28,327 bases of DNA from a virus, in IMG/VR virus record IMGVR_UViG_3300044799_000369, positions 1-28,327 of that record; one strand, written 5' to 3'. The notes under the pieces were generated by a model. That model had not been told where the DNA came from, searched no databases, and saw only the letters and a list, made by a program, of their open reading frames with translations. Shown one piece after another: positions 12,374-28,237 of the stretch. Positions within the stretch are counted from its first letter, which is position 1, and each line of letters begins with the position of its first letter. The position numbers were made by a program, and so were the translations under genes.

Positions 12374-13936
12374 ATGGTCTTAACGCAGGTAACAATTAAT
12401 GGTACTGATGTAACAGACTACGTCATTAATTATATTTCTGACAGGACGTGGGGAGAGGCAATAGCACAGGCAGAGATAAAAGTCAAGAAAATCATAGATG
12501 AGGTCTTAACTTTGGACACTGGTCAAGCAGTCTTAATTCAAAGAGGCTGGACTTTGCCAACTGATGAAAACATATTTCAAGGCTACATAGAAAGTTATAA
12601 TCCTGAAGGCGGAACAATTAAGATAGTCTGCAAGGACAAGGCTTGGGACTTAATAAGAAAGGAGGTAACCCACACATACACATCTGACGATATAACCGCA
12701 GGTAAGATAAGCGACATATTCCTTGACTTGGTTACAACCTATGGCGGCTTGACAGCAGACGGAACTACAGTACAGGACTCTGGTACAGTAATAACCCTCA
12801 CTAAATTTGTGTGCAATCACGTAGATATATTTGAAAGATGTCAGAAGTTAGCTGGTGTATTGGACTGGCAGTTTTACTATAATCCTCATACAGACAAGAT
12901 TTATTTTGAGCCAAAAGGATTCACTTCAAATTCAACAATTCTTACAGTAGGAGATAATGTAATTAATGTGCCTAAATGGCAATATGACAATACAGAGATG
13001 TGCAACGACCTTACGGTAGTTGGAGCGTATCAGGAAATAGAAACTACGGAAATGGGGCAAATAGGCATAACCGCAGGCTATACAACTACATCAGTTCAGT
13101 TAAGCTTTACGCCAATATCTGTAAAGGTCTATAATGATATGGCTAATCCACCAACCACTTTGAAAACAGGCGGACTGCCAGACAGCACAGGCACTTACGA
13201 TTATTACGTAGACAAGACACAGAAGCAGATATTGCCCAAGCCAACAACTACGTTTATAAATAACAGCTTTATGGAAGTTAGATATTCTCATGCTGTGCCT
13301 ATTCCAGTGCACATGTACAGCCAGACAAGTATAGACGCTTATGGCTATTTTACAAAGACAATAACATTTACAGATTTAAGAAGTGTAGCGGACGCTGAAA
13401 GCAGAGGACAAACTTATTTAATACAGCATTCTCAGCCGTATATCTACTCAACTCTTAATGTCAAGTCGGATTCAACTTTCGGTCTTAAGGTTGGCAACAT
13501 GGTTCAGGTAGTTGATAGTGTTTCTACGCCGACAGTAAACAAGCAAATGGTGATTAACAGGCAGGTTATTCGCTACCCAGCAGACTATGAGGAAAATTAT
13601 GTGGGTGACCAGTACTGGAGATTATCTGCATGGCAGGCTTCCGTTGAGCAAAGATTGAAGCAATTACAGGAAGAAGAGATGCAGAACCAAGACCTGATAA
13701 CAGAAGTCATCACTGCAGACGATACGCTCAACTATCCGATTAATCTAAATTTACGATATAACAAAACCTTGACACAGAATACCGTAGCTGGCAAAGCGAT
13801 ATGGGGTTTAAGCATGTGGGCTGGAGGGGACGTTTGGTGTACAGATGCTTTCACAGCAGAAGCGGATTATTTTGTCATACAATATCAAAATATCTATGTT
13901 GAAACATTCATAGATACGGACTTCAAGGGGTACTAA
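12374..13936 (+). CDS. Tail hub / baseplate protein (gp27/gpD-like)
   Basis: The 520-residue protein begins with VTINGTDVTDYVINYISDR and QAEIKVKKI, then GQAVLIQRG and a segment IFQGYIESYNPEGGTIKIVCK. That order matches the first beta domain of tail hub proteins of the gp27 / late control D group. A helical region follows (ITAGKISDIFLDLVTTYGG), then VDIFERCQKLAGVLDWQFYY and DKIYFEPKG, both typical of the second hub domain. The C-terminal third is beta-rich and may contact the adhesins. It overlaps the next ATG by one base. Hub proteins form the ring through which tape and DNA leave the tail. Confidence 0.65.
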   Translation: MVLTQVTINGTDVTDYVINYISDRTWGEAIAQAEIKVKKIIDEVLTLDTGQAVLIQRGWTLPTDENIFQGYIESYNPEGGTIKIVCKDKAWDLIRKEVTHTYTSDDITAGKISDIFLDLVTTYGGLTADGTTVQDSGTVITLTKFVCNHVDIFERCQKLAGVLDWQFYYNPHTDKIYFEPKGFTSNSTILTVGDNVINVPKWQYDNTEMCNDLTVVGAYQEIETTEMGQIGITAGYTTTSVQLSFTPISVKVYNDMANPPTTLKTGGLPDSTGTYDYYVDKTQKQILPKPTTTFINNSFMEVRYSHAVPIPVHMYSQTSIDAYGYFTKTITFTDLRSVADAESRGQTYLIQHSQPYIYSTLNVKSDSTFGLKVGNMVQVVDSVSTPTVNKQMVINRQVIRYPADYEENYVGDQYWRLSAWQASVEQRLKQLQEEEMQNQDLITEVITADDTLNYPINLNLRYNKTLTQNTVAGKAIWGLSMWAGGDVWCTDAFTAEADYFVIQYQNIYVETFIDTDFKGY

Positions 13937-15306
13937 TGGTGGACTTTACGATTAATAATACGGCGGGATTTGACGCAGGGACAAAGAGCAGCACATCTAC
14001 AACCACAGACGACTACAAAGCAACAGCAAACAGATTGGAACTCTCCTGTCCGCCTTATGCAAAAGACTCAAACCTGAAAGCGTTCTGGGCTATGGACGAA
14101 GGCTCTGGCGACCCTGCTGATGCAACAGGAGTGAATAACGGCACCATAAATGGAACCGTGACTTGGGTAGGTACGGGCGTATGGAGTGGAAATTGTCTAA
14201 ACTTTGATGGCAGTACGGGCTATGTGGCTTGCGGAGGCGATGCAAGTTTAAACATAACAGGAGACGTCACTTATTGCGGTTGGCTGTACATACCTGCTCC
14301 CTTGCCAGCCATTTCCACGTTCATGACAAAAGGAGATTCAGCAGGCTCAACAGGTCACCAATATATTTTCTATTCCTCAGACGCTGGTGCGTATGAAATG
14401 TTTATAGGTGACCCGATTAATGCCACATTAGTTGGCGGCACTGGGATGGGCACTGGTGCGTGGCATCATATAGCTTTTACTAAAGCGGGAACAGCTTGCA
14501 ATATATATTATGACGGAAGTCCAGACGGCAACGTAACGAAGACTGCACCGAGTTCATGTGGAGATGCCTTTTTGATAGGCAGGCATAGCAGCATAGGCAG
14601 GTATTTCAAAGGCAAGATGCAGTGCTTGCGTGTTTACAATAGAGGCTTGTCTGCAGGCGATATAACCACACTTTACAATTCTGCATTATTGTATAAAACA
14701 AGTGGTAATTGGAATTCGGCAACACAGACCATGACGCCTGCCAAACAGATACTGAATACGATTATAGATTACACGGGCGTGGACGCCAATAATTACATCG
14801 ACAAGATAGAGTGGAGCGTAGGCGGAGTTGTCAAAGCCACGTACGATACAAACATCACTTCAGGAACAACCAAGACCATAACAGAGGCAGACCTGACATC
14901 AGGCACATTTCATGACGTGGTTGCAGATTTCAAGGTTAAGATTTATTTTGTTGGAAATGGTTTAGGCTCGCCTATAATATCCTCCATTACGGGAAATTAT
15001 GAAACCGCACGTGCCAACTGGAACACCACCGCAAAGCAATTAGAATTCGCTGCAAACCAAGAAGCGTATAGCAAGAGCATCGATTTTAACAACGGAACAA
15101 TAACGCAAGCCAAGATGACAGTAACAAAGACAAGCGGCTCTTTTGATTATTATTTAAGTGCTGATGGTGGAGCTAACTGGGAAGCAGTAACCAGTGGAAC
15201 TTTGCACAGCTTTACAAACACAGGCACAGACCTGAGATGGAGAATAGTTGAGAACGCAGCGAGCACAGGCGTAGTGACAAAAGTAAAGGTAGAACAATAT
15301 CATTAA
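13936..15306 (+). CDS. Adhesin with LamG/concanavalin-like lectin domain
   Basis: The 456-residue protein starts in a one-base overlap with the hub gene. Residues about 45-250 form a LamG-type lectin domain: LKAFWAMDEGSGDPADATG, CLNFDGSTGYVACGG, VTYCGWLYIPAP, WHHIAFTKAGTACNIYYDG, then FKGKMQCLRVYNRGLSAGDI. These are the canonical W..dEgsG, l.FdG....yv, and D.vriYnraLs motifs. The remaining 200 residues are beta-rich and may attach to the tail. Such domains bind glycans and here probably recognise the host surface. Confidence 0.8.
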   Translation: MVDFTINNTAGFDAGTKSSTSTTTDDYKATANRLELSCPPYAKDSNLKAFWAMDEGSGDPADATGVNNGTINGTVTWVGTGVWSGNCLNFDGSTGYVACGGDASLNITGDVTYCGWLYIPAPLPAISTFMTKGDSAGSTGHQYIFYSSDAGAYEMFIGDPINATLVGGTGMGTGAWHHIAFTKAGTACNIYYDGSPDGNVTKTAPSSCGDAFLIGRHSSIGRYFKGKMQCLRVYNRGLSAGDITTLYNSALLYKTSGNWNSATQTMTPAKQILNTIIDYTGVDANNYIDKIEWSVGGVVKATYDTNITSGTTKTITEADLTSGTFHDVVADFKVKIYFVGNGLGSPIISSITGNYETARANWNTTAKQLEFAANQEAYSKSIDFNNGTITQAKMTVTKTSGSFDYYLSADGGANWEAVTSGTLHSFTNTGTDLRWRIVENAASTGVVTKVKVEQYH

Positions 15307-19981: not shown

Positions 19982-20236
19982 TTACCTCTTCCTTAAATAT
20001 TCTTTTTTACAAGCGCAGCTTAAAAGCTGACCTTCACACTTCGGACATCGTTCCATATCACAACCGAAGTGATGTACGTTTCCGTTAATTATTCCACAAT
20101 CATGACATCTTACATTTATATCGCAATATGAGCAAGAAGTTATGCGCTTGTATTTTTTCTTGTCTATCGTAATAAAGGGAAATAGACAAGATTTTGCTTT
20201 TAGCATTTCTAGATTACAATCTTTGCATTTAGCCAT
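19982..20236 (-). CDS. Multi-zinc-ribbon protein (84 aa)
   Basis: ATG 20236 follows GAGGTTC and is preferred over a TTG four codons earlier. The small protein contains CKDC (residues 4-7), CSYC and CHDC in the middle and, at the end, HHFGCDMERCPKCEGQLLSC. That ending resembles a recurring H..GCD.E.CP.C.GQ..SC.C motif of uncharacterised phage and bacterial proteins. It overlaps the preceding gene's 3' end by eight bases. It may bind nucleic acid or a host protein. Confidence 0.65.
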   Translation of the reverse strand: MAKCKDCNLEMLKAKSCLFPFITIDKKKYKRITSCSYCDINVRCHDCGIINGNVHHFGCDMERCPKCEGQLLSCACKKEYLRKR

Positions 20237-20384
20237 TTTGAACCTCAAGCGAGCGTATTCTCGGCCTATTGCAGTAATGGCAAGGGTCGTCGGAGTAGTC
20301 TTTTATGTGTCTGCATTTTTTGCAGTAGAAATTTCCGTTTATTTCTATCGTATTCTCGTCAACTTGTTTTAGTGTAGTTACCAT
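20229..20384 (-). CDS. Single zinc-ribbon protein (51 aa), first of the leftward operon
   Basis: Starts at ATG 20384, 37 bases after the centre of the CTTTATAAAG box, with AGGTAA as ribosome site. The 51-residue product has one zinc ribbon (CKKCRHIKDYSDDPCHYC, residues 21-38) between short strands. It is the promoter-proximal gene of the operon and should be strongly expressed. No function is apparent. Confidence 0.65.
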   Translation of the reverse strand: MVTTLKQVDENTIEINGNFYCKKCRHIKDYSDDPCHYCNRPRIRSLEVQNG

Positions 20385-20398
20385 TTGTTTACCTATGG

Positions 20399-20425
20399 CT
20401 AACTAGTTAATTAGTCTTTATAAAG
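20399..20425 (-). promoter_or_regulatory. Leftward early promoter and operator
   Basis: On the minus strand GGGAAAGCTTTATAAAG gives a BRE-like purine stretch and a TATA box (20416-20425). Downstream of it is the operator-like CTAATTAACTAGTTAG (20399-20414), ending close to the expected transcription start. The same order occurs at 24520-24549 on the other strand. A repressor binding here would block polymerase, the usual archaeal mode. Confidence 0.65.
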
Positions 20426-20502
20426 CTTTCCCTTGTCATTTCTAATGGAGAATGAGTGAAGCTGTTATTTTCCATATTGAGCTAGTTTCTTCAGAAAAGT
20501 GG

Positions 20503-20517
20503 CAAAGCTTATAAATT
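20503..20517 (+). promoter_or_regulatory. Rightward early promoter of the amidoligase operon
   Basis: CAAAGCTTATAAATT has the same AAAGCTT plus TATA core as the divergent leftward promoter, in opposite orientation. The start codon of the first gene is at 20557, giving a leader of about 15-20 bases. The operator seen at 20399 and 24530 is not repeated here. An AT-rich CATATATTATAG follows. The stretch between the two promoters (20426-20502) shows no gene. Confidence 0.6.
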
Positions 20518-20556: not shown

Positions 20557-20934
20557 ATGGTAAAATGTAAACAGATAGAACAAAAAGAATCTCAACCAGA
20601 ATTCAATAATGGTTTTGTAACTTCCATAGCATTGTTTTTAGCTCACATAAATCAAAACTATCTCGTTTGCAAAGATAAGCAAGGTAAGGTCATCACAGAC
20701 ATAAGGCTATACGCTGCAACAGACCATCTGCTTGAAATGGATTTTCCACGACATCTGCCTATCGCTCTTTTAAAAAGAATCAAAAAATGGAGAACTCGCT
20801 GCCTTAAGCACAGATACGATAATTTCAAAAGCACACAGTTTTCAGATAGCCTTTTCAAAGAAGCTGAAAAAATCCTAAGCAAAATTGACGAGCAGGTCCT
20901 TAAAACGCCAAAAGTCATCATCCGTTATTCGTGA
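20557..20934 (+). CDS. Hypothetical protein (125 aa), first of the amidoligase operon
   Basis: ATG 20557 follows GGAAAGG and is preferred over TTG 20542. The product has a beta/helical N-terminal half (FNNGFVTSIALFLAHINQNY, then KVITDIRLYAATDHLLEM), then basic helices (LLKRIKKWRTRCLKHRYDN) and SLFKEAEKILSKIDEQVLK. There are no CxxC pairs or membrane segments. It ends seven bases before the amidotransferase. It may contribute substrate or regulation to the following enzymes. No family recognised. Confidence 0.6.
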   Translation: MVKCKQIEQKESQPEFNNGFVTSIALFLAHINQNYLVCKDKQGKVITDIRLYAATDHLLEMDFPRHLPIALLKRIKKWRTRCLKHRYDNFKSTQFSDSLFKEAEKILSKIDEQVLKTPKVIIRYS

Positions 20935-20941
20935 GATTAAT

Positions 20942-22039
20942 ATGTGCTATGAAGCGATAATGATAAATCCGACAGCCGTCGGAGAAGAAGGCTACTGGGC
21001 GCTTGTAAACTTGATAGCAGAAGGCGTCTATAATAAAGACGGGTACGCCTTGCGAGTAGATGATGAGCTGATAAGAACTCTAAGCTTCAAGCAATTTTTG
21101 CAATTTGTTAAAGAAAAAAAGGATAAAATCATCAAGGCGAAGGTCTGGCACCTGCACATGCGACTCGCCACCAACATCGTCAACACTAAATACATTCATC
21201 TGTGGAATTTCAGCGACTGGTATTGCTCGCACAATGGAGTTCTGTCCAACACGATAGACAGACTGCAAAACGATAGCTATCTATTTTTTAAAAGCGTGAA
21301 AGCGGAACTTAAAGAACCAGACGTCGCAAAGTTAAAGAAAAAATTAGAGAAAGACGAAGGCTACGGCGTGTTTTTACTCTCGCATAAGGACAGAAACGAA
21401 CAAATCGTGATTGCCTACGGCAAAGAAGTCAAGATGTTTAAGTTAAACGACAGCTTCATCTTTAGTTGCGATGACATAAACTTCGATAATTTCGTTACGG
21501 GCATAGTGCACATAAAGGTAGCGGAAGAGAAAAAAAATTACTTAGGTATAGAATTCGAAAAGGTGGAAAATATGCCTCTGTCCGTGGGCAAGGTTAAAAT
21601 TAATTTGCTCGCAGAGGCGGCAGTTGAAAGCAGCCTGATGTACTTCAAGGACTTCCAGTTAAAAACTGCCTTGCCTCTCGTTAAAAAAGAAAGACAATTT
21701 TCATGTTACGGCAGTAGCCGATACATAGGCTTGGACGATGATTACTATTTTAGATATACGAACAGCTACGTAGAAGCAAACCAAGTGATAGAAGCGGAAG
21801 CCGCTGCGATGCTGATGAAGGACATCGTTGGCTTTAAGGCTCATGAGAAAACTATCAACAGCCTCATCGTTCTAGCAAAGTCGCAAAATAGAACGGAAAG
21901 CCAAGAAAAATTGGAACACTTGCTCGCTTTAGATTGCGCTAATAAGGACACTGAAATGGAAATAGGCATCGAAGCCGAATTGACCCAGCTGCCCTTTAGG
22001 AATCTAAGAAGATTGCATCGCAGGCTCATAGGAGATTGA
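20942..22039 (+). CDS. Class II glutamine amidotransferase-like protein
   Basis: The start at ATG 20942 places Cys at position 2, the nucleophile of N-terminal (Ntn) glutamine amidotransferases after Met removal. Further hallmarks follow in order: VWHLHMRLATN (residues 68-78, like H.R.AT.G), IHLWNF (85-90), CSHNGVLSN (95-103, like HNG...N) and NDSYLFFK (110-117, the D-S pair). The family hydrolyses glutamine and passes ammonia to a partner. Residues after about 180 have no assignable domain. It lies in one operon with an amidoligase, which suggests a two-enzyme system forming amides on an unknown substrate. Confidence 0.75.
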   Translation: MCYEAIMINPTAVGEEGYWALVNLIAEGVYNKDGYALRVDDELIRTLSFKQFLQFVKEKKDKIIKAKVWHLHMRLATNIVNTKYIHLWNFSDWYCSHNGVLSNTIDRLQNDSYLFFKSVKAELKEPDVAKLKKKLEKDEGYGVFLLSHKDRNEQIVIAYGKEVKMFKLNDSFIFSCDDINFDNFVTGIVHIKVAEEKKNYLGIEFEKVENMPLSVGKVKINLLAEAAVESSLMYFKDFQLKTALPLVKKERQFSCYGSSRYIGLDDDYYFRYTNSYVEANQVIEAEAAAMLMKDIVGFKAHEKTINSLIVLAKSQNRTESQEKLEHLLALDCANKDTEMEIGIEAELTQLPFRNLRRLHRRLIGD

Positions 22040-22040
22040 A

Positions 22041-22526
22041 ATGGAAATTGAACTACAGTCGATAAGAGGCAAACCGAATCTTACGATAAGGTATGAAAAC
22101 GACGAGTGGCCGAAGTTGGAAAAGGTATTGCGAGACAGGCTTAACCTCGTTGTGCACGAAGTAGCCAACGCTTGGAACATGGGCAAAAAGCTATCTTGTT
22201 ATACGGAAAAAAATGAAGACCTGAAATTTTATCTGCTCAATACGATTAGCCAAGAACTTAGATGCCAAAGCGGTTTTGACGTATTTGACGATATCAACAA
22301 GCCGATTAGCCAAGGGCGTTCCATCAATATCGCTGTTTTAAGAATCGTTCCTTCTGGTAACAGAGTGAACATTCCTTTGGACAACAAATACCTGACCATC
22401 GCTGAGGTAAACAAAATAGCCCGAGTGTTATCTGAAGCTGTCAGGGCGTTGCTCGAAATAGTGAATGAAACGAAAATCAAGATAGCGATAATTGACGAAA
22501 GCGTGACAGCAGATGGCAATAAATAA
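22041..22526 (+). CDS. Uncharacterised partner of the amidotransferase/amidoligase pair
   Basis: A 161-residue protein with GGAGATTGAA as ribosome site, one base after the amidotransferase stop. It reads as alpha/beta with WPKLEKVLRDRLNLVVHEVAN near the N-terminus, a basic or polar centre (INKPISQGRSINIAVLRIVP) and a long C-terminal helix (VNKIARVLSEAVRALLEIVN). No motif is recognised. It overlaps the amidoligase start by 14 bases, so all three are likely made together and may form one complex. It may be a substrate carrier, but this is a guess. Confidence 0.65.
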   Translation: MEIELQSIRGKPNLTIRYENDEWPKLEKVLRDRLNLVVHEVANAWNMGKKLSCYTEKNEDLKFYLLNTISQELRCQSGFDVFDDINKPISQGRSINIAVLRIVPSGNRVNIPLDNKYLTIAEVNKIARVLSEAVRALLEIVNETKIKIAIIDESVTADGNK

Positions 22527-23517
22527 ATACATTATGAGTATAGGTTTTGAAGTGGAATGCGGCATTAACTGCTATGACCGAGACGCTCTCGAGCAATGGT
22601 TTATGGCGAACCATCTATTGGATTATTTTGATTATTGCAGCGACGGCAGCGTCCACGTAAAAAGCAAAGAATACCAAGACGAAGAAATCCGGATTTGGCA
22701 CTACTCTATTAAAATCATTAAGAGAATGATGCGAGCGATTTTTGACATAGGTAAAATCTCAACGAATTGCACCTGCGGCTTTCACATACACATTGTGATT
22801 CCTAAAAAATACGAAGGGCTCACGACGTACGGTCCGTTCGTTGTAAATTTCATAAACGCCTACAAGACCGAATTTGGACATTTGCGAAGATACGAAAAAC
22901 GTCTGCACAATAGCTATTGCAATCCTAAGTATGACCGAGAAGAAGTCATAATGGGCTTGGAGAGCGAGGATAAAGATAGCCGCTACTGGGCGATAAACTT
23001 CAATTCCATACCCGTCCACGAAACGTTGGAGTTCAGGATATTTCCCGCCCAGAGAAATTACAAGGAGTTTATCAAGACGTTTAACTGGTTTAGGAAAACG
23101 GTCGCTAGTCTGATTTCAAAGATGAAACAAAAGCGCACCATTTATTTAGAAAAAATAGCAGAAGCGCCCTCGTACAAGCTTGCGAGGTCTTACAAAACCA
23201 AGCTGAAAGAAGCGCTGATAACGGAGTTCAAGATAATACCCACCAAACTCGGACAAGTTCAAGCGCTTTCAAAGAAACAACTCGAGACGCAAGAACAAGA
23301 ATTACAAGCATACAAAGAGCACAAGGAATTTCTCAAGTTTCTGCCAGTGGACAGCCAGCAGTTTAGACACGTCTTCCTTCCGCCTAATCAAGCTCGTGCG
23401 CTAGAAGTACCCATAGCTTATCGTGCTGCTTTTGGCGTACCTTCGGATTACTATGAAAGTATAGATGACGCTCAGACAGATGATGCTCAGACAGAGGAGG
23501 CTGAATCGAATGGATGA
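22513..23517 (+). CDS. Amidoligase (glutamine-synthetase-like COOH-NH2 ligase)
   Basis: The 334-residue product shows the Amidoligase_2 signature order: GFEVECG (residues 11-17, metal-binding Glu), CSDGSVHVK (42-50), CTCGFHIHIVIP (87-97), DSRYWAINFNSIPVHETLEF (155-174) and EFRIFPAQRNYKEFI (173-187). The family joins a carboxylate and an amine using ATP, with a fold related to glutamine synthetase. The C-terminal third is helical and acidic and ends with a tandem DDAQT repeat. The operon partner at 20942 would supply ammonia, and the target is unknown. Amidoligases are known to occur beside amidotransferases in genome-context studies of this superfamily. Confidence 0.8.
   Translation: MAINKYIMSIGFEVECGINCYDRDALEQWFMANHLLDYFDYCSDGSVHVKSKEYQDEEIRIWHYSIKIIKRMMRAIFDIGKISTNCTCGFHIHIVIPKKYEGLTTYGPFVVNFINAYKTEFGHLRRYEKRLHNSYCNPKYDREEVIMGLESEDKDSRYWAINFNSIPVHETLEFRIFPAQRNYKEFIKTFNWFRKTVASLISKMKQKRTIYLEKIAEAPSYKLARSYKTKLKEALITEFKIIPTKLGQVQALSKKQLETQEQELQAYKEHKEFLKFLPVDSQQFRHVFLPPNQARALEVPIAYRAAFGVPSDYYESIDDAQTDDAQTEEAESNG
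23464..23493 (+). repeat. 15-bp tandem repeat in the amidoligase 3' end
   Basis: GATGACGCTCAGACA and GATGATGCTCAGACA follow one another with one mismatch, encoding DDAQT twice. The repeat is in frame and would change tail length without breaking the gene, so copy number may vary between relatives. Confidence 0.8.
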
Positions 23518-23818
23518 GGAAGAAAGCCGCTTCGATAAAGTGAATTCCAAAGAACTCGGGGAAGAACCGCATCTGGAATATCCCGAGAAGAGCGAACCGC
23601 AGCCCGTCTTTAGAGCGAGATTGAGAAAGGGATACTGGTTCCAAATCGTGGAAGAATTTATTTTAAGCGAGGCGAATTATGCGAGAGTGCGAGGAAATCT
23701 GCCAAAGAATTGGCGTACTTCTTTGCGAGCGGCAATAAGAATTGCACGTGCGAATGTCGTGATAAGATTAGATGAGAAAAGCAGACCGTATCTAATGAGA
23801 GCGGACTGGATTGCATAG
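23510..23818 (+). CDS. Hypothetical protein downstream of the amidoligase (102 aa)
   Basis: ATG 23510 is preceded by GAGGAGG and overlaps the amidoligase end. The first 30 residues are acidic and flexible (EEESRFDKVNSKELGEEP). The rest is a basic alpha/beta domain with RARLRKGYWFQIVEEFILSE, WRTSLRAAIRIARANVVIRL and SRPYLMRADW. No Cys pairs. The split acidic-basic character could allow protein or nucleic acid binding. No family recognised. Confidence 0.6.
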   Translation: MDEEESRFDKVNSKELGEEPHLEYPEKSEPQPVFRARLRKGYWFQIVEEFILSEANYARVRGNLPKNWRTSLRAAIRIARANVVIRLDEKSRPYLMRADWIA

Positions 23819-24105: not shown

Positions 24106-24435
24106 ATGGCAGAAAAAGAAAGGACATGGATGTACGATGGAATCACCTTTAGGAAGTGCCCTAAGTGTGACAAGGGCATACCCAAAGGCTGGGACGAGCA
24201 TAAAAAATGCGGATGGAAAGAGAATCCAACGCCCGACGTAACGGAAGCGAAAGAAGCCATCAACGAAATGAAGCAAGAAGGGCTGAATACCGAGCAAATA
24301 ATGGATTTAGCTCACAACTACGTGGATACGAAGTTTGTCGCATACACGCCTGAAGCGAAGGCGAGGCTTGTCAACATGTTCGTGATGGACTACCGCAAAG
24401 AGCAGTGGATTAAAAATAAAGGCAAGGAGAAATGA
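24106..24435 (+). CDS. Zinc-ribbon protein with helical tail (109 aa)
   Basis: Starts just after the previous stop. Residues 12-36 form a ribbon-like domain (FRKCPKCDKGIPKGWDEHKK, then CGW). The remainder is helical and charged (EAKEAINEMKQEGLNTEQIM, then AKARLVNMFVMDYRKEQW). The CPKCDKGIPKGW.EH..CGW pattern is like small nucleic-acid-binding ribbons of phage replication regions. It ends with a GGAGAAATGATG overlap to a tiny frame. Confidence 0.6.
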   Translation: MAEKERTWMYDGITFRKCPKCDKGIPKGWDEHKKCGWKENPTPDVTEAKEAINEMKQEGLNTEQIMDLAHNYVDTKFVAYTPEAKARLVNMFVMDYRKEQWIKNKGKEK

Positions 24436-27698: not shown

Positions 27699-27833
27699 AT
27701 GGAACAGCCAATTGTGATAACGAAGCGCTTGTGCAAGCAAGGCAACCAAGTTCTGCTCGTAGTTCCGATGAGCCTGAAGAACTTATTGCCCGCTGGCACG
27801 TTGGCGAAGATTACGATAGAGAAACTAGAGTGA
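27699..27833 (+). CDS. AbrB/SpoVT-fold mini-protein (44 aa)
   Basis: Starts at the ATG expected from the leaderless promoter. The product reads as the swapped-hairpin AbrB fold: IVITKRLCKQGNQVLLVVP, then SLKNLLPAGTLAKITIEKL. This matches the archaeal pattern V.VTkrltKqGNs..v.iPk.l...l....G..v.v...kl. Such proteins bind DNA as dimers and often act as regulators or antitoxins. Here the gene stands alone with a glycosylase. The stop lies two bases before the glycosylase ATG, so both are co-translated or coupled. Confidence 0.7.
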   Translation: MEQPIVITKRLCKQGNQVLLVVPMSLKNLLPAGTLAKITIEKLE

Positions 27834-27835
27834 AG

Positions 27836-28237
27836 ATGATGTTAACGCAAGAGAAGTTTTCGTGCACGCCATGGCATATCATAGTCGTATCTATTTTGTC
27901 TAAGCGAGTCGATGGAGGCAAGCGTCTCTCCGTAATGAAAGCGTTTTTCAAGTTGTGTCCGACGCCTAAATCTGTGAATTCTAAAGCCGTCAAGAAGATG
28001 GTCGAGCTTTTATCTCCGTTCGGGCTGCAGCACGTCCGGAGCGCCGAGATTCAGAGAGTGGCGGCTTTGTTAAAAAGAGAGAAGAAACCGACGAGAGCCC
28101 AGCTGGATGACATAAAAGGCGTAGGCAAGTACGTGTCCGACGCTTACGCTCTCATATATCTAAAAGATTTTTCCATACAGCCGGACGATTACGCCCTCGA
28201 GCTATGGAAGGAGGAACATGGAACCCATCATCGTTAG
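27836..28237 (+). CDS. MBD4-type HhH-GPD mismatch DNA glycosylase
   Basis: The start at ATG 27836 follows the AbrB-like stop; the GTG at 27731 lies inside that gene and is less likely. The 133-residue product aligns by eye with the MBD4 catalytic domain: CTPWHIIVVSILSKRVDGGK (near the family's PWKLLIATIFLNRTSGK), MVELLSPFGLQHVRSAEI, DDIKGVGKYVSDAYALI (helix-hairpin-helix, like HGIGKYGNDSY) and IQPDDYALELW (Asp118 aligns with the catalytic Asp of VHPEDHKLN). Such enzymes remove T from G:T mismatches left by deaminated 5-methylcytosine. The domain is complete and lacks the MBD part. The following gene looks like a DNA methylase with a ParB domain, supporting a base-modification role. Confidence 0.8.
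   Translation: MMLTQEKFSCTPWHIIVVSILSKRVDGGKRLSVMKAFFKLCPTPKSVNSKAVKKMVELLSPFGLQHVRSAEIQRVAALLKREKKPTRAQLDDIKGVGKYVSDAYALIYLKDFSIQPDDYALELWKEEHGTHHR

Follow-up and report, generated by a model that had tools for sequence, protein, structure and literature searches.

A divergent class II amidotransferase and an Amidoligase_2 enzyme encoded in one operon of a tailed virus with a probable archaeal host

Results

Organization of the operon and its upstream region

The DNA analysed here (the window) is the whole 28,327-bp IMG/VR virus record IMGVR_UViG_3300044799_000369, which is probably a fragment. Four genes follow each other on the plus strand at 20557-20934, 20942-22039, 22041-22526 and 22513-23517, the first three separated by 7 bp and 1 bp and the last two overlapping by 14 bp. 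This spacing confirmed two proposals of a preliminary description of the locus, namely that the four genes form one operon and that the gene lying between the two enzyme genes overlaps the second of them. The operon encodes an orphan protein of 125 aa (20557-20934), a putative divergent class II glutamine amidotransferase (GAT) of 365 aa (20942-22039), a second orphan protein of 161 aa (22041-22526) and a predicted Amidoligase_2 enzyme, i.e. a glutamine-synthetase-like carboxylate-amine ligase, of 334 aa (22513-23517). It runs on past the amidoligase gene, whose stop codon is overlapped by an ATG at about 23510 that starts a further orphan gene (23510-23818, plus strand), the product of which had no Pfam match and only chance-level matches to PHROGs. 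Further downstream, the product of 24106-24435 (plus strand), which adjoins a CxxC pair, matched the C-terminal domain of replication factor C weakly and under the cut-off (E 8.8e-4), and a weak match to HhH-GPD DNA glycosylases, likewise under the Pfam cut-off (E 0.0016), was detected for 27731-28237 (plus strand) at the right end of the window.

Neither orphan protein encoded within the four-gene operon could be assigned to a family. The 125-aa protein had no match at E<=1 in Pfam and PHROGs and a non-significant best match of 0.14 in NCBIfam, searches of Pfam, PHROGs and NCBIfam with the 161-aa protein gave nothing above chance, and relatives of the two proteins were found in none of the libraries or cassette loci searched.

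Approximately 41 bp 5' of the first start codon, an archaeal-type BRE/TATA element (AAAGCTTATAAA, 20504-20515, plus strand) matches the consensus exactly. This is the single exact match in the record, 0.11 being expected under a first-order Markov model. A second, TATA-like element (AAGCTTTATAAA, 20417-20428, minus strand) lies in the opposite orientation about 33 bp before the leftward gene 20229-20384 (minus strand). Since the two elements face in opposite directions, the region between both operons resembles a pair of divergent promoters. That the operon is expressed early, as it had been labelled, we only infer.

A very divergent class II amidotransferase

The motifs named in the preliminary description for the two enzymes were all found at the places given for them, in the first case MC at the N-terminus, HLHMRLAT and HNGVLSN. 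The signature H.R.[AS]T...HNG did not arise in any of 200,000 shuffles, and when 1,368 long frames from the examined loci were searched, the full pattern including the N-terminal Cys occurred in GAT-like frames only. A profile of phage GATs matched the protein with an E-value of 1.4e-6 and 26.1 bits (best shuffle 5.5 bits), and none of the Pfam GAT families (GATase_4/6/7) matched the 365-aa protein at E<=1. M1, C2, H72, R74, H86, H97, N98, G99 and D111 are invariant across 37 sequences including the GAT of the record, which therefore has the class II catalytic residues, i.e. the N-terminal Cys following Met, the Arg, the HNG oxyanion loop and the Asp. A near-invariant Pro following His86 is missing.

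The protein consists of an Ntn-type domain, comprising approximately residues 1-177, and a C-terminal region of about 185 residues without relatives. A structure model built with a GAT alignment (m6d3d51753606) was confident for most of residues 1-150 and not for most of residues 190-365, and all 36 PDB matches of this model at E<=0.001 were class II amidotransferases (GlmS, GFAT, EgtC, PurF). The Ntn alpha-beta fold predicted in this way depends on the alignment, and the match lends support without being independent evidence, because that alignment was made of known GATs; a single-sequence model computed with no alignment was uninformative. The predicted fold is common to the glutaminase domain of GlmS and GFAT and to EgtC, although sequence identity to these proteins is low (10-16%). 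As the C-terminal part was modelled at low confidence, no synthase domain is recognisable there, and a gamma-glutamyl cyclotransferase (GGCT) domain, which a YGS motif had suggested for this part, found no support in Pfam. The profile match, the conserved catalytic residues and the predicted fold together bear out the proposed class II amidotransferase-like nature of this protein, which we regard as a very divergent, predicted class II glutamine amidotransferase.

The same fold comparison bears on an alternative role of the protein, that of an independent amidohydrolase of the EgtC or YafJ kind cleaving or editing an amide related to the gamma-glutamyl or other amide product of the amidoligase. 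The best fold matches include EgtC, an Ntn hydrolase that stands alone, a viral YafJ was matched as well, and the GATs of other phages are short and have a single domain. The glutaminase domains of GlmS and GFAT donate ammonia and give slightly better matches, however, and we consider the amidohydrolase role unlikely.

An Amidoligase_2 enzyme with a conserved active site

The product of 22513-23517, which contains the motifs FEVE, CGFHIHI and TLEFRIF, matched the Pfam family Amidoligase_2 (PF12224) with 32.6 bits, above the cut-off of 22, and phrog_2443 with an E-value of 5e-9. Comparison with a profile of 112 viral amidoligases gave an E-value of 6.9e-17 and an hhalign probability of 98, the best shuffle scoring 7.5 bits. 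G11, E13, E15, D44, S46, E53, G89, H91, H93, R157, Y158, N162, E173 and R175 are kept, so that the complete active-site set of the family (G-x-E-x-E, D-x-S, E, H-x-H, R-Y...N, E-x-R) is present. Exceptions among the near-invariant columns of the 112 relatives are a V to Q exchange at position 55 and an R to K exchange at position 129, the latter with an adjoining Arg. These matches and the retention of near-invariant residues uphold the earlier assignment of the protein as an Amidoligase_2-type enzyme, which is predicted to catalyse ATP-dependent carboxylate-amine ligation.

Conservation of this kind also speaks to the idea that the two proteins are degenerate or repurposed, with their folds kept and at least one enzyme inactive or turned into a binding protein. 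The strong divergence of the GAT, the loss of the Pro after His86 and the unique C-terminal extension would fit such a history, but both enzymes retain their catalytic residues, their reading frames are intact and the operon is tightly packed, which makes degeneration very improbable.

The virus and its probable host

Profile searches identified a prohead protease, an SU10-type major capsid protein (MCP), an adaptor, a neck protein, a tape measure protein and a baseplate hub in the left part of the record. Ten other IMG/VR contigs encode capsid proteins with 73-81% identity to that of the record. At 37-40% identity the MCP matches contigs from MAGs that bear the labels Woesearchaeota, Nanoarchaeota, 'archaeon' and WOR-3, with four contigs from archaeal MAGs at 38-40% or 37% and one further relative in the MAG labelled bacterial (WOR-3); the MCP of the haloarchaeal virus HHTV-2 is 24% identical. 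The head module is thus in common with viruses of archaea. Because MCP relatives occur in archaeal MAGs and in HHTV-2, and because of the BRE/TATA element, the record probably derives from a tailed virus with an archaeal host, whereas the relative in the WOR-3 MAG counts against such a host. The preliminary description had called the virus an archaeal tailed virus; this part of it is supported indirectly, by the capsid relatives and the TATA element. The MAG contigs labelled Woesearchaeota, Nanoarchaeota and 'archaeon' (L035, L036, L037 and L039) carry SU10-type tailed-virus capsid genes and may represent viruses or proviruses of DPANN archaea. A candidate for the receptor-binding protein is encoded in the tail region of the record at 13936-15306 (plus strand); it contains a LamG/concanavalin-like domain (Laminin_G_3, E 1.4e-20).

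A class II GAT has been published for the archaeal viruses PhiCh1 and ChaoS9 (PMC8651126). In these tailed viruses of archaea, as in the present record, a class II GAT gene occurs, and theirs adjoins a gene for a protein of about 357 aa. In the alignment, this 'uncharacterized' 357-aa protein of ChaoS9 (ChaoS9_220, L040:2319-3392, minus strand), a homologue of which is encoded by PhiCh1, showed the amidoligase-like motifs HGMEVE, GSHVH and TIELR, and motifs of this type were also seen in the PhiCh1 homologue and in L044:2027-3313. The motifs and the neighbouring GAT suggested an Amidoligase_2 enzyme, but profile tests gave chance scores. The haloarchaeal partner therefore differs from the amidoligase of the record in resembling the family by motifs alone, and ChaoS9_220 is kept as a lead only.

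The head-tail half of the record is common to its relatives, whereas the half carrying the GAT and amidoligase genes is not. Among 15 related viral records, mostly fragments, none encoded the amidoligase or, as judged by protein search, the GAT. Direct searches of IMG/VR and a phage collection for close relatives of the two enzymes gave none or weak matches only. None of 279 genomes from the phylum to which one of the archaeal MAGs belongs contained PF12224, and an amidoligase profile found nothing in 34 more genomes; both searches were run without a positive control.

Recurrence of the enzyme pair in bacteriophages

Phage cassettes combining an amidoligase and a GAT have been on record since 2009, and the usual interpretation is that they alter bacterial peptidoglycan to stop superinfection. 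In IMG/VR, the two genes lay close together in 18 of 28 loci anchored on a GAT and in 11 of 80 anchored on an amidoligase, two sets with some contigs in common, near-duplicates included; either gene occurred in 0 of 34 control loci, which were structural regions of related viruses. The pair was found in the phages UFV-P2, LUZ24, phiEco32, O4 and C75C1, in MW202615, in the gut phage MT835576 and in a Christensenellales phage, and is widespread in bacteriophages (phiEco32, LUZ24, PA11, RIO1-like and gut phages). That carrying an amide-forming pair would in itself make a tailed virus unusual is therefore not supported, the pair being both widespread and published in bacteriophages. Repeated pairing with a synthetase also favours ammonia supply over amide editing by the GAT, while leaving room for editing.

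As in the cassettes of the phiEco32, LUZ24, PA11 and RIO1 type, the Amidoligase_2 gene of the record lies near a class II GAT gene on the same strand and near replication genes. The phages LUZ24, UFV-P2 and phiEco32 have a gene for a protein of about 190 aa that overlaps the start of the amidoligase gene, as the gene of the 161-aa protein does in the record, and in O4 the order is GAT, ligase, a 182-aa protein and amidoligase. The record differs from the phiEco32 type in its probably archaeal host and in the small protein encoded before the amidoligase, which is not homologous to its phage counterpart: comparison of the 161-aa protein with the family of LUZ24 gp17 gave an hhalign probability of 0.2, and BLASTP gave no match. 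Membership of this protein in an enzyme complex, suggested in the preliminary description, thus found no support, as it is an orphan unrelated to the similarly placed phage proteins of about 190 aa; it may be a partner of the enzymes. The two conditions named earlier as refuting the proposal gave divided answers: the enzymes do have the conserved catalytic residues, whereas no other genome was found with the exact trio, and only the pair recurs.

The record also differs from the phiEco32 type in that no COOH-NH2 ligase (PF14395), ATP-grasp or GGCT gene was detected among the proteins scanned of what is probably a fragment, and the part seen therefore represents a minimal version rather than the full cassette. 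In this respect it resembles two-gene cassettes of an amidoligase and a small GAT in gut and environmental phages (for example MT835576, L063-L067 and L142-L150). In these the amidoligase gene precedes the GAT gene, whereas in the record the GAT gene comes first, and the GAT of the record has a 185-residue C-terminal extension; amino-acid identity is only approximately 24%. The GAT of MT835576 was the sole BLASTP match of the record's GAT within the cassette loci, and this protein and the adjoining amidoligase matched the pair of the record with E-values of 2e-5 and 7e-9, each in a single comparison. Two further proteins (L056:4001-4897 and L060:4001-5218) are annotated as gamma-glutamyl cyclotransferase only, yet have an N-terminal class II GAT domain and an amidoligase gene nearby; they are apparently GAT-GGCT fusions.

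The long version of the cassette has been described as a 'peptidoglycan modification cassette' with a proposed role in changing the cell surface against superinfection (PMC5498523), and cell-surface alteration against superinfection has also been proposed elsewhere with reference to Iyer et al. 2009 (PMC10580990). No biochemical proof of peptidoglycan modification or activity data for the phage cassettes was found in the literature. In Phage-ZRK32 the same gene set was read as nitrogen metabolism (PMC10945688), i.e. as a metabolic pair making or recycling small gamma-glutamyl or amide metabolites for nitrogen or amino-acid supply rather than modifying a macromolecule. This would agree with some phage GATs carrying the annotation gamma-glutamyl cyclotransferase and apparently being fused to that enzyme. 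We nevertheless judge a metabolic role improbable here, since cyclotransferase and ATP-grasp genes are absent among the proteins of the record tested and viral amidoligases are sequence-diverse and seemingly lineage-specific.

Discussion

Both enzyme assignments hold, and an ammonia donor acting with an ATP-dependent amide-forming enzyme, as first suggested for this locus, is the best reading of the operon. We consider it fairly probable that the record carries an amide-forming cassette of two enzymes, of the phiEco32/LUZ24 type, in a tailed virus that probably infects an archaeon. As its fold and the residues Cys2, Arg74, Asn98, Gly99 and Asp111 suggest, the class II GAT domain would hydrolyse glutamine and free ammonia; the amidoligase, by virtue of its Amidoligase_2 membership, would phosphorylate a carboxylate with ATP, and attack by ammonia or an amine would yield the amide. 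Their recurrent adjacency points to joint action of the two proteins, and placement of the ammonia from the GAT on a carboxylate by the amidoligase would be the likeliest mechanism. What weighs against this explanation is the strong divergence of the GAT, with neither the Pro after His86 nor a Pfam GAT family, and the absence, in what is probably a fragment, of the genes for ATP-grasp, COOH-NH2 ligase and GGCT that long phage cassettes contain.

The most likely substrate is a carboxylate carried by a surface or envelope molecule of the host, by a small peptide or by a metabolite. Archaea lack ordinary peptidoglycan, and pseudomurein is found in some methanogens. The usual substrate proposal would for this reason not carry over, and ordinary murein is an unlikely substrate if the host is archaeal. 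A more specific and tentative possibility, to which we give rather little weight, is that the GAT with a new C-terminal domain, the orphan protein as a coupling protein and the Amidoligase_2 enzyme jointly amidate an archaeal surface protein, a glycan or a translation or replication factor. If this were true, the general role of the phage cassette would not be peptidoglycan modification.

Altogether, the pair of this record is a well-supported divergent further example of a known viral enzyme cassette, and the chief reason for interest in it is that the likely archaeal host sharpens the substrate question. With two enzymes and one small protein, the record offers a minimal system for this question, and the presence of the pair in a probable archaeal virus would argue for another or a broader substrate.
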